From Candidatus Gracilibacteria bacterium (GTDB lineage Bacteria; Patescibacteriota; Gracilibacteria; BD1-5; UBA2023), in contig JAQUAB010000004.1 in the NCBI GenBank assembly GCA_028687475.1, positions 1 through 64,000 of the forward strand: a stretch of 64,000 nucleotides of DNA, given 5' to 3'. The notes under the pieces are model-generated. The model did no database searches. It worked only from the letters and a program-made list of their open reading frames with translations, and was not told where the DNA came from. Every line of letters begins with the position of its first letter. Position 1 is the stretch's first letter. This document shows, one piece after another, positions 23,760 to 31,575 of this stretch. Both the position numbers and the translations under genes were made by a program.

Positions 23760-24215
23760 ATGATAACGATTCTTGCGGTTACAGACGGATTCAAGCATTT
23801 TGGTGAACCTATATCAGAATATGGAAAACGCCTCGGGAAACATATCAATCTCAAGCCTCTCAAGCCCATTTCGCATACGAATCCAGAATATATCAAGATA
23901 AAAGAAACTGCTATCATCAAGGAATCCCTCCAGAAACTCTCTGGAACGGTCATATTGCTCGATGAGCGCGGAAAAGGGATGAATACTCGGGACTTCGCAG
24001 AAATGCTCGAAAATGGACGAAATCAGAGCGAAAACTTCATATTCATTATCGGTGGAAGCTACGGCGTGGATCTGGAGCTTTTTACAGAGATTCCTCACAA
24101 GACGCTTCGGATTTCCGACTTTGTCATGCCGCATTCTCTCGCCCTTCTCGTTCTCATAGAGCAAATCTACCGCGCACATGAGATTATGAAGGGAAGTGGG
24201 TATCATCACGTTTAA
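23760..24215 (+). CDS. rlmH: 23S rRNA pseudouridine-1915 N3-methyltransferase RlmH
   Basis: 151 residues, full length for this SPOUT enzyme. LDERGKGMNTRDFAEML and FIIGGSYGVD form the SAM-binding trefoil knot, and the C-terminal EQIYRAHEIMKGSGYHH is the RlmH ending. It methylates the helix 69 pseudouridine of 23S rRNA. The ATG at 23760 gives the usual MITILAVT start. No TGA used. A hairpin terminator follows. Confidence 0.93.
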   Translation: MITILAVTDGFKHFGEPISEYGKRLGKHINLKPLKPISHTNPEYIKIKETAIIKESLQKLSGTVILLDERGKGMNTRDFAEMLENGRNQSENFIFIIGGSYGVDLELFTEIPHKTLRISDFVMPHSLALLVLIEQIYRAHEIMKGSGYHHV

Positions 24216-24218
24216 TAT

Positions 24219-24250
24219 ATTCGCTTCTTATTGTAAAATAGAAGCGAATT
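24219..24250 (+). terminator. Terminator after rlmH
   Basis: Ten-base stem ATTCGCTTCT/AGAAGCGAAT followed by a T-rich tract. Confidence 0.75.
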
Positions 24251-24273: not shown

Positions 24274-24529
24274 AAAAAACCCGCGACTGTGGGTACAGCG
24301 CGGATTCAAGATTGGATGCCTTTGGTCACTCGCTGTGAGTTCTTAAAAAAATGAACTCGGGAGGACACGAAAGGTCAGTTGGTGAGGTACTCAACCTCGT
24401 AGACAAAATGTCTAGCCCAACTGACCTTTCGACGGAATTTTGAGTGGGCTGTCGAGCCACTTTTTGCCCGGTGAGGGCCCATATCCTTCCAACTCATTGA
24501 ATGAGAAAGATATGAGCCATCACCAGTGT
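24274..24529 (-). ncRNA. Candidate structured non-coding RNA of unknown family
   Basis: About 256 bases with no gene on either strand but very regular pairing, read on the minus strand. From 5' to 3': a long hairpin CTGGTGA...TCACCGG continuing through CATATC/GATATG with the cap CTCATTCAATGAG; a hairpin AGTGG/CCACT; a 13-base stem AAAGGTCAGTTGG/CCAACTGACCTTT that opens into two hairpins (TAGACA/TGTCTA and GAGGT/ACCTC), a three-way junction; hairpin GAGTTC/GAACTC; then terminator CCGCG-CTGT-ACCC-ACAG-TCGCGG followed by T6. It has its own promoter. I could not match it to RNase P RNA, SRP RNA, tmRNA or 6S RNA by their conserved motifs. Confidence 0.6.
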
Positions 24530-24535
24530 TTTTTG

Positions 24536-24563
24536 ATTCTATTTTTGTATCGGTATACAAGAA
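24536..24563 (-). promoter_or_regulatory. Promoter of the candidate ncRNA
   Basis: On the minus strand TTCTTG (24563-24558) and TAGAAT (24541-24536), spacer 16, placing the start of transcription near 24529. Confidence 0.45.
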
Positions 24564-24585
24564 TTTGCTCTTTTTGTATTTTGAT

Positions 24586-24762
24586 ATGAAAATTTGATGA
24601 ATCTTTGTTTTGGTATTTATAGCAGGAAGATTCTTTGAGGAAGATTTCCTATTATCGGTCAGTCAGGTCTTGTTAAGTATCATTCTCTTTCGAGAAGACA
24701 TAGGCAGTATATCAGTATTTCGAAAAGTCGACGAGTTCATAGATATTGCCATTCTATGATAA
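24586..24762 (+). CDS. Small hypothetical protein
   Basis: 58 codons, readable only with TGA = Gly (MKIGGIFVLVFIAG start). One hydrophobic stretch is followed by a charged region (LFREDIGSISVFRKVDEF). Divergent from the ncRNA. No family and weak support beyond protein-like composition. Confidence 0.35.
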
Positions 24763-25049: not shown

Positions 25050-25742
25050 TTACTGATTCAGAAGAGCAAAAGCGGCTACTACCCCTGCCGTCTCCGTTCT
25101 CATGACTCGTTCAGAAAAATGAGCAAATATGAAACCACTTCATATCATTTCTTGTCTTTCTTCCTCTGACCAGCCACCTTCGGGTCCTACCCAGAGTCCT
25201 ATATCTTGTATATCAGAGAATTCTCATAATCTCTTTTGTTCTCAGAGAGTATCGAGAACCATATGGATTCATGACTCTGGAAGAGCTCCTTTCTTTTCGA
25301 GAAAGTGAATCTCTGGCAATACTAATCCCCCGCACTGTTCCACTGCTTCCCGAGCAATCGCATGGAAACGTGCAATTTTCGAATCTGATAGTACCAGTTT
25401 CTGGGACCGATCCGAACGAAAAAATATAAACTTCTTAATTCCTATCTCAACTCATTTCTGGAGAATATACTCGATTTTCTCGATCTTATTCGGAAGCGCC
25501 TGATAGAGTACTACTGACTTGGTGGCTTCTGTCTTGGGAAATGTACGAGCAATTCCCTTGAGAGAAATTGATTTCTTCTCGATAGCGACAATCTCGTACT
25601 CTGTCTCAGAACCATCACCATCGAAGAGAATCACGTGATCACCTGTTTGGAATCGAAGAACACGAGAGAACTGATGGATAATATCAGCATCTGTGAGGAC
25701 AACATCGATCGAGAGTGGAAATGGAACAAAAAAACGCTGCAT
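25050..25742 (-). CDS. rsmE: 16S rRNA m3U1498 methyltransferase RsmE
   Basis: 230 residues with five in-frame TGA. The N-terminal PUA-like part has RVLRFQTGDHVILFDGDG. The SPOUT part has ALPNKIEKIEYILQKGVEIG, the signature VGPEGGWSEEE and the ending RVMRTETAGVVAAFALL. Under the standard code only the first 96 residues remain. It methylates U1498 in the 30S decoding region. The next gene upstream on this strand ends 5 bases before the start. Confidence 0.95.
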
Positions 25743-28608: not shown

Positions 28609-31575
28609 TTACTTAACGTTCTGAGCAGTAGCAGAAGAAACACCTACGTAGCTCTCAGAAGCTCCAACGTAGTAGACCTTATCCACAGAAACCTGTGTAT
28701 AGTCACCAGCGATGAAGAGAGGAGCGTTTGTGAGGTATACTTCGAATGTAGTATTACCACCATTCTTCGAAAGTTGTTGTCCAGCAGAAGTGAGACCACT
28801 ACCAGTAAGAAGAGAGAATGTAGCAGTAAGACCAGCCTGAGTGATACCAGTTCCGGCAGTTGTACCGTTACCTTGAGTACCAGCTACACAGTCCTCAGAA
28901 GAACCTTGGTCACGGAGACAGAGAGTTCCGTTGAATGTCGTACTAGTAGAACCAGCAAAACGAGATTGGAACTTCACAGTGATTCCTGTAAGAGTAAGAC
29001 CTGTATTAGAATCAACATTTGTCACAGTTACGAGATACTTGTTGAGTTCAGAAGTCTTAGATACAGAAACTGTTGGAGGAACAGCACCAAGAGTATACTG
29101 CTTGAATGTAAGTCCTGGAAGGTTTACAACAAGACCATTACTGTTAGTATCACGAACCACTGTACCAGTTGAATAAACAAGTTGTACTGTGTCACCGATG
29201 TAATCATCGATAGAACCAATGGAAGCAACTACCTTATAGTTTCGAGTTGTATCTTTCGCGATAGTATCATTCATGCTGTTGAATGTAATTTTGTTACCAT
29301 CAACAGTCGCAGAAGATGAAACCTCGAGACCAGTAGCAACATCATAAAGCTTAACGCTAGATGAGCTTGAAACTACACCTGAAAGAGCAGCACTACCTGT
29401 ATTTGTAAATTCAATTGTCTGAAGACGAACTGCTTCATTTTGTGCGTATACCGCGAAGCGACCGATTTCTTGGTCAGCAGAAGCAAAGATACGACTAGTA
29501 GTAGGAGCTGCGATAGTTGCAGTCTTGATTTCTACAGTAGCAGTATTGACAGTAGTCTTATCACTAGTGAGTGACTTACCAGCACCGATTGTAGCAGTGT
29601 TGTTAGAAGAGTCACGAGCATCAGTAAGCTCAATAGTGAATGAAATAGCACCATTAACAAGCTGAGAGCTCTTAAGAGAACCTTCAATAGTAAGTGTAGC
29701 AGGATTTGTAGAATCAACTACAAATGAAGGAGAAAGATCAACGTAACCAGCAGCAGGGTTAATAGTAGTAAGTGTTCCAACTTCAGAACCATTTACCTTC
29801 ACGGAAAGTTGGTTGTTGACGAAGGCATAAATACCAGCTCCTGTAGCAGTACCAGCATCAGTTACACCTGTAAGAGTATTACCAACTGGAGTGATACGAA
29901 GACCACGGATAGTAAGAGGAACAGATGATGTGAGCTTACCATTGAAGAGCTTAACATTGTTTGTACCTGGAGCGAGAGTTACATTTGCAGAAGTAAGCTT
30001 AGAGAAAGTTACTTCAACATTAGTAAATCCGATTGTTACAGCAGTACCAGGAACAGGATATGTACTTACAGATGTAGAATATCCTGTGGCAACTTCTGTA
30101 GCAGATACATCACTTGTAGAGTCAAACTTGAATCCAAGAGTAGTACCAGAAGCAGAGCTTCCATCAACGAGAACATCAGCCTTAATTTCGTAAGTCTGAG
30201 TGTTTCCAGATGTGAGAGTATCATTGAGACCTGTTACAGAAAGCTTCTCTGCAGAGAGAGATACTGTACCAACCTCGACACCTCCACGGTAAACCTTAGC
30301 ATTAGCGAGACGCTTAGTGAAATCTACACCAACGCGAGTGAGTGTAAATCCTTGTGCAACTGTATCACGACCACCAGAAGTAAGCTCAACCTTAACGATA
30401 GACTGATTTGTCTTACCAGGAGTAAGAGTACCAGCTGAAGTAGAAAGATTAGCAGTAGTATTGGCAGTTACGTATGAAGTTGTATTTACAAGTCCAAGAG
30501 TAATAGGAGCACCAGATACAGTTGATGAACCAGCGTTAACTGAGTCAAGAGTGAATTGGTGTTGGCTATTCTCAGAACCAGAAAGGTTCACAACGATGTC
30601 AACATTTACTGAAGTACCAGCAGCAACAGTGAGCGCTGGAGAGAAGTAAACATTACCCTTCTGAGAAGTAGCGTTGTAGTAGTCAGCAGAACTAGAGATG
30701 ATAACTCCATTCTGAGATGCGCGGATTCCGTTTGATGATACAATTCCATCAGCAGCACCAAGACCAGAACGAGATACCACGAGTGAGCTAACAGTTACAG
30801 GAGTAGTACCAGCAGTGAGCTTAACAGTACCAACCTTAACATTAGATGCGTTCTTTGGAACGTATTGAGCTACAGCTGTACCTTCGAGAGCAACTGAAAG
30901 GTTTCCAGCTACAGTAACACCTGTATTAGTAACACCTGTATTAGTTCCAGGAGTTCCAGGAGTACCGTCAGTAGGCTCAGTACCTACATCAAGTTGAGCA
31001 GCGCAAGATGCGATCTTGAACGCTTCTCCACGAGAAGCAGTAGCATTAGGACGGAAGTATGATGCATCAGCAGCACATCCGATCTCATTGGCACGGTTGA
31101 TGTATCCAGCGAGGTCACCAAGACCAGCGAGATCCATATAACCAGCGTCAACATCGCTACCAGTTTCACCGAGAGCACCGAGGATCATCTTTACCATCTC
31201 TGCACGTGTGACGTTAGCAGTAGGACGGAAAGTAGCAGAAGATGTAGAGACAACACCTGCTTCAGCAAGAGCCTCAACATATCCACAAAGATCACCAAGT
31301 GAAGAACCAACGTCAGAATAGACGTCACCAGCACATGAAGTAGCTGTGTAACCACCAAGGTTTGCTACAACCTTAGCGAGTTCTGCACGAGTGACATTAT
31401 CACCGAGGCGGTAACCAGCCTCAGTAGATTGAGCGGTGATAACACCGTAGTCAGCAAGAGCTTGAGCGTAAGGAGCGAACTCTGAAGCAGCGGCAACAAG
31501 CGATGAACTTGTAGTTGCAGCGACGAGAGTCACAACACTTACTGCAGAAGCGAGCTTCGAAAAGAAGTTACTCAT
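28609..31575 (-). CDS. SLH-domain surface (S-layer-like) protein, 988 aa
   Basis: N-terminal signal peptide (residues 1-30, ending SLVAAASE). Three SLH-type repeats follow (about 32-190), each with F/Y..A...G.......F/Y.P...(T/S)R.E: for example YRLGDNVTRA, FRPTANVTRA and YFRPNATASRGE. After a Pro/Gly/Thr linker (TEPTDGTPGTPGTNTG) come about 780 residues of beta-rich, Thr/Ser/Val-rich Ig-like repeats with motifs such as VKLTAGTTPVTVSSL. This looks like the main envelope protein. Despite nearly a hundred glycines it contains no TGA codon, unlike most genes here, and codon choice is strongly biased, which suggests very high expression. Long structured leader upstream. Confidence 0.88.
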   Translation of the reverse strand: MSNFFSKLASAVSVVTLVAATTSSSLVAAASEFAPYAQALADYGVITAQSTEAGYRLGDNVTRAELAKVVANLGGYTATSCAGDVYSDVGSSLGDLCGYVEALAEAGVVSTSSATFRPTANVTRAEMVKMILGALGETGSDVDAGYMDLAGLGDLAGYINRANEIGCAADASYFRPNATASRGEAFKIASCAAQLDVGTEPTDGTPGTPGTNTGVTNTGVTVAGNLSVALEGTAVAQYVPKNASNVKVGTVKLTAGTTPVTVSSLVVSRSGLGAADGIVSSNGIRASQNGVIISSSADYYNATSQKGNVYFSPALTVAAGTSVNVDIVVNLSGSENSQHQFTLDSVNAGSSTVSGAPITLGLVNTTSYVTANTTANLSTSAGTLTPGKTNQSIVKVELTSGGRDTVAQGFTLTRVGVDFTKRLANAKVYRGGVEVGTVSLSAEKLSVTGLNDTLTSGNTQTYEIKADVLVDGSSASGTTLGFKFDSTSDVSATEVATGYSTSVSTYPVPGTAVTIGFTNVEVTFSKLTSANVTLAPGTNNVKLFNGKLTSSVPLTIRGLRITPVGNTLTGVTDAGTATGAGIYAFVNNQLSVKVNGSEVGTLTTINPAAGYVDLSPSFVVDSTNPATLTIEGSLKSSQLVNGAISFTIELTDARDSSNNTATIGAGKSLTSDKTTVNTATVEIKTATIAAPTTSRIFASADQEIGRFAVYAQNEAVRLQTIEFTNTGSAALSGVVSSSSSVKLYDVATGLEVSSSATVDGNKITFNSMNDTIAKDTTRNYKVVASIGSIDDYIGDTVQLVYSTGTVVRDTNSNGLVVNLPGLTFKQYTLGAVPPTVSVSKTSELNKYLVTVTNVDSNTGLTLTGITVKFQSRFAGSTSTTFNGTLCLRDQGSSEDCVAGTQGNGTTAGTGITQAGLTATFSLLTGSGLTSAGQQLSKNGGNTTFEVYLTNAPLFIAGDYTQVSVDKVYYVGASESYVGVSSATAQNVK

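Follow-up and report, generated by a model that had tools for sequence, protein, structure and literature searches.

A candidate structured RNA gene of about 430 bases on the minus strand in one family of Gracilibacteria

Does the stretch at 24274-24529 of our window, a 64,000-nt piece of a Candidatus Gracilibacteria contig (JAQUAB010000004.1), encode a structured RNA, and if so, on which strand and with which ends? A first-pass annotation had proposed a novel structured RNA of 256 nt on the plus strand, with its own promoter and terminator, to be checked by an Rfam scan and a covariance search. The stretch is indeed gene-free: no credible gene lies between RlmH (23760-24215, plus strand) and RsmE (16S rRNA methyltransferase; 25050-25742, minus strand). 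Its stable folding also held, with a z of -6.2 for the plus strand of 24274-24540 that none of 200 shuffles matched, and so did its long stem with a three-way junction (24368-24382 against 24416-24430, two hairpins in between). However, relative to dinucleotide shuffles the minus strand of this stretch folds better (z -9.1 versus -6.2), the fold z is lower on this strand in all nine homologues described below, and their alignment contains 44 G-U cells versus 29 A-C cells on it. The RNA is thus placed on the strand opposite to the one proposed. Moreover, the strongest conservation lies on the minus strand in the roughly 180 bases past the proposed end, up to a TATACT box. On this comparison, the 256 nt make up the 3′ half of an RNA gene of about 430 bases that had not been described before and is predicted to run on the minus strand from 24705 to about 24274. 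We regard the RNA as real because nine related Gracilibacteria keep its fold through many matching sequence changes. The case also shows that an RNA call made from folding needs a comparative check of its strand before it can be relied on.

Among 59 genomes searched by BLASTN with the stretch, G014 held the one clear homologue, flanked by the same neighbours; the remaining matches were mostly low-complexity A/T sequence. Inspection of the sequence behind RlmH across the family added four members, and a pattern scan based on the conserved 5′ region a seventh (G013). The covariance model R1, restricted to the 5′ domain and built without G006 and G005, was run on 353 genomes of the class with strict filters that may lose distant members. 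It hit nine genomes only, namely the seven known ones, G006 (E 1e-14) and G005 (E 6e-7); a second model built from all nine members (R2) returned these at E ≤ 1.1e-11 among the 27 genomes of the family, all E-values coming from a shortened calibration. The diverged G006 and G005 also keep helices H2, H9 and H10, which R1 does not cover. Additional weak R2 matches in the 27 genomes were rejected, one looking coding (G015) and the other A-rich (G018).

The nine members belong to five genera of one family, in 9 of whose 27 genomes the RNA was detected, and RsmE is always upstream. From the -10 box to the T-run, two members measure 418 and 488 nt, and the first seven stay at 433-439 nt although their sequences and hairpins differ. 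An exact pattern scan across GTDB matched only records named Candidatus Gracilibacteria, and phages, plasmids and IMG/VR viral contigs contained no match to the RNA. On a poorly resolved RlmH tree, with G006 on a very long branch, the distribution of the RNA corresponds to three changes, and a single origin with losses is not separated from transfer. RlmH of G019 (L040) and RlmH of the window share 87% identity though G019 is assigned to another genus, for whose other members the figure is 55-57%; transfer or a misplaced genus is possible.

Both ends of the RNA are marked by sequence signals in all nine members. An extended -10 promoter, TGATATACT (24714-24706, minus strand), is found at the same place throughout, with the box TATACT (TATAAT in G005) preceded in most members by TG one base ahead. 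The true 5′ end is probably at 24698-24700, about 7 nt past this box. At the other end, a terminator hairpin, CCGCGCUGU-ACCC-ACAGUCGCGGG followed by U6 (24274-24303, minus strand), precedes the conserved T-run; in the MAFFT alignment of the nine members every cell of its stem is paired, and 7 of the 8 pairs are compensatory. The terminator loop (24280-24303 and homologues) reads UACC(A/C)A in every member while the stem varies, and a search for a partner of this loop found none. The claim of a novel structured RNA stood, being borne out by nine members, strong covariation and the lack of an Rfam match, and sequence signals for an own promoter and terminator are present, but at other sites than those proposed. 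The best promoter candidate on the plus strand, TTAATA-16-TAAAAT (24212-24239), scores 9 of 12 and is located within the hairpin just behind RlmH, and the region has 4 such sites versus 3.0 expected by chance. The T-run taken for a plus-strand terminator is the complement of a conserved internal A-run, CAAAAAACAC, of the minus-strand RNA.

Covariation was measured on an unadjusted MAFFT alignment of the nine members, with an 80-pair structure drawn on G013, itself one of the aligned sequences. On this alignment 87.4% of 704 cells were paired, and none of 500 shuffles was as high; 46 of the 80 pairs had changes on both sides, versus 23 in shuffles and 10-16 with slid partners. Compensatory change of the kind expected from a stand-alone structured noncoding RNA is therefore present, although the shuffle-based excess is inflated because the nine sequences are related members of one family. 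The slid-register control is less affected by this relatedness, and in it 36-47% of cells paired (45-47% for a one-column slide).

The modelled helices all lie on the minus strand. A 5′ hairpin with a GNRA loop, H1 (UCUUCUC-GAAA-GAGAA(U)GA, 24680-24698), is present in 8 of 9 members, with the loop GUAA in G019, the closing C-G replaced by U-A in G006 and a longer hairpin in G005. The core is closed by the long-range helix H2, whose 5′ arm CCUGACUGACC (24657-24667) pairs with GGUCAGUUGGG (24416-24426), the 'mid' strand with a fixed place in all nine members. This 11-nt helix (nt 39-49 with 280-290) is kept at the same place in every member with 96.7% of cells paired, 5 pairs changed on both sides and an arm-swap p of 0.0005; its inner end reads CCC/GGG, GCC/GGC, ACC/GGU or AUC/GAU in different members. 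Within the core, H3 (AGGAA..UUCCU, 24624-24650), a hairpin with an inner stem, has 6 positions with compensatory changes. Compensatory changes also occur in H4 (24522-24614; ACC/GGU in the window, UCC/GGA in genus g3), which encloses H5 and H6. Among these three, compensation is strongest in H5 (GAUUC/GAAUC, 24599-24603 with 24535-24539) and support is weaker for H6 (24587-24547), with its conserved A-rich loop ACAAAAAGAGCAAAU. Two further hairpins follow, H7 (24477-24519), long and with 7 of 10 outer-stem pairs changed on both sides, and H8 (24443-24461), with 6 of 7.

Beyond H2 come the adjoining H9 (24400-24414) and then H10 (24384-24398). In a hand-set register all 45 cells of H9 were paired and all 5 of its positions compensatory, and H10 had 3 of 4 positions compensatory; manual choice of the arms inflates the paired fractions in that test, and on the unadjusted MAFFT columns, which are free of this bias, H9 is 63% paired. 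From H10 to the terminator the nine members share no consensus structure. The H3 loop CUCA (24636-24639) is invariant in all nine members, and the H10 loop UGAG (24390-24393), identical in all nine, is complementary to it, which suggests a kissing contact between the two loops; since these bases do not vary, covariation lends the contact no support.

The 3′ arm of H2 has a second possible partner, CCAACUGACCUUUCG (24368-24382, minus strand), and this alternative helix is mutually exclusive with H2. In the window the duplex has 15 bases and -26.1 kcal/mol, equalled in none of 500 shuffles, and is the same stem as that of the three-way junction described above. A second partner is also significant against shuffles in G002, G021 and G013, less so in G023 and G006, weakly supported in G019 and not significant in G014 and G005. 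In the window the alternative fold has a calculated advantage of 6.5 kcal/mol over that with H2 by energy alone, yet evolution keeps H2 everywhere. Since most members offer the H2 3′ arm a downstream partner, the RNA may switch between two folds, thereby freeing or hiding the 5′ CCUGACU strand. We put this forward tentatively and rate it as somewhat doubtful, because the location of the second partner moves from member to member.

Could this gene be a known RNA in diverged form? A universal RNA, that is SRP RNA, 6S RNA, RNase P RNA or tmRNA, might fill an empty slot, as two of the four are undetected in these genomes: SRP RNA (RF00169) gave no match in the window's own genome and none over the cut-off in the 27 family genomes, and 6S RNA (RF00013) gave no covariance-model match at the locus or in 21 genomes of relatives. 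However, the RNA-binding M domain of SRP54 (PF02978) is also undetected in 27 of 27 family genomes, with controls found in 13-14 of 14, and SRP seems to have been lost family-wide, which agrees with a report that many CPR bacteria lack SRP subunits (PMC8080830). RNase P RNA (RF00010) has no match at the locus or in the window, tmRNA (RF00023) has neither a covariance-model match nor a tRNA-like domain at the locus, and the genome carries both elsewhere (G000:C3:108552-108950 and G000:C3:35270-35691, respectively). Moreover, presence in a third of the family is unlike a universal RNA. Like 6S RNA, the RNA stands alone and possibly changes between two folds, but it is twice as long and branched rather than a rod with a central bubble. 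No Rfam family matched at gathering threshold, and all 4227 families of Rfam 15, searched at gathering and permissive thresholds against this locus and eight member loci, returned only tRNAs and chance scores. Descent from a universal RNA is therefore very improbable. Among the faint scores, the CrcZ model (RF01675) reached 19-22 bits in three members against a cut-off of 95; CrcZ resembles the RNA in its length of about 400 nt and its A-rich linkers, but its AANAAYAA motif is missing from the window RNA and two other members and no shared structure was shown, and a CrcZ-like sponge was rejected on the missing motif.

The other readings depend on the neighbouring genes and reading frames. Mutually exclusive helices sharing one strand ahead of a terminator resemble attenuators and terminator-containing riboswitches, and a cis-acting switch would let this terminator control read-through into the downstream gene. 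Two members have the arrangement for it: in G006, with the RNA directly behind RsmE, the 5′ arm of the terminator itself offers the H2 arm a partner and the next gene is a co-directional tRNA-Thr, and in G005, also with the RNA directly behind RsmE, a co-directional ORF resembling chorismate mutase/prephenate dehydratase follows. However, the downstream genes share no theme, and in the other seven members the next gene is convergent, whether it is RlmH or an ORF inserted ahead of RlmH, which leaves the terminator no gene to control. The window's second partner is also clear of the terminator. No conserved co-directional downstream gene, as expected for a cis-regulatory leader or attenuator, was thus found among the nine, and since this gene is usually convergent, we consider a cis role unlikely. 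(In G013 the ORF between RNA and RlmH has 165 aa, L066 597-1094, plus strand, and is missing in the other members.) RsmE, on the contrary, is the constant same-strand upstream neighbour, in 9 of 9 members, as would be the case if the hairpins belonged to the 3′ UTR or a processed tail of its messenger. But RsmE is followed by a separate terminator-like hairpin of its own (24976-24951), a conserved -10 box stands just ahead of the RNA, and RsmE is widespread in the order, yet at 40 loci behind it in other genomes R1 without filters found nothing better than an A-rich chance match of 21 bits; this origin appears slightly less probable still than a cis role. A small protein read with TGA as glycine is suggested by a 143-aa open frame in the window, which begins at a conserved ATG and shares the start MSSRKRM with several members. 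Four members run into a stop in this frame after 9, 17, 17 and 21 codons, frame lengths vary from 9 to 143 aa, and substitutions follow base pairing; a peptide is practically excluded because the frames are broken.

With universal RNAs excluded or unlikely, a cis role unlikely and a peptide excluded, what remains, and what we favour with reasonable confidence, is a stand-alone structured noncoding RNA gene of about 430 nt with its own extended -10 promoter and intrinsic terminator, probably acting in trans. In our model, transcription would run leftwards from the promoter behind RsmE and end at the intrinsic terminator. The H2-closed core would carry hairpins H3-H8, followed by H9 and H10, and could be locked by the CUCA/UGAG contact between H3 and H10, and exchange of the H2 3′ arm to its downstream partner in most members may constitute a two-state switch. 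As the downstream gene is inconsistent between members, the RNA most likely acts in trans, perhaps as a scaffold or regulator bound by a protein or another RNA.

Large stand-alone structured RNAs are known from bacteria, including OLE, ROOL, GOLLD and raiA. The RNA here is like them in its length of several hundred bases, its many helices with covariation, its long-range pairing, its own transcription unit and a patchy distribution within a clade, and unlike them in its architecture, its host range, its lack of an Rfam match and its much narrower distribution within one family. Judged from these sequence features, it is best read as a new family of this general kind; in the open-licence literature we found no structured RNA described for Gracilibacteria. 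A more speculative, and rather unlikely, extension is that it represents a new class of large, tertiary-folded trans-acting RNAs of a small-genome lineage with TGA as glycine, in which a bistable core, with H2 set against its alternative, switches the exposure of a 5′ strand or of a face that binds protein. In genomes as small as those of Gracilibacteria, an RNA of about 430 nt that persists under strong compensatory change presumably repays its cost, and it offers a clear object for probing, pull-down experiments and structural studies.

Two minor observations concern other sequences. At L002 2669-2830 the 5′ end of a tRNA-Leu (GATTTGCCCAGGTGGTGGAATGGTAGA) is present twice, as if partly duplicated. 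In the window, an ORF of 988 aa with an S-layer-homology-like start (28609-31575, minus strand) has no TGA codon, and its neighbouring genes use TGA as glycine.
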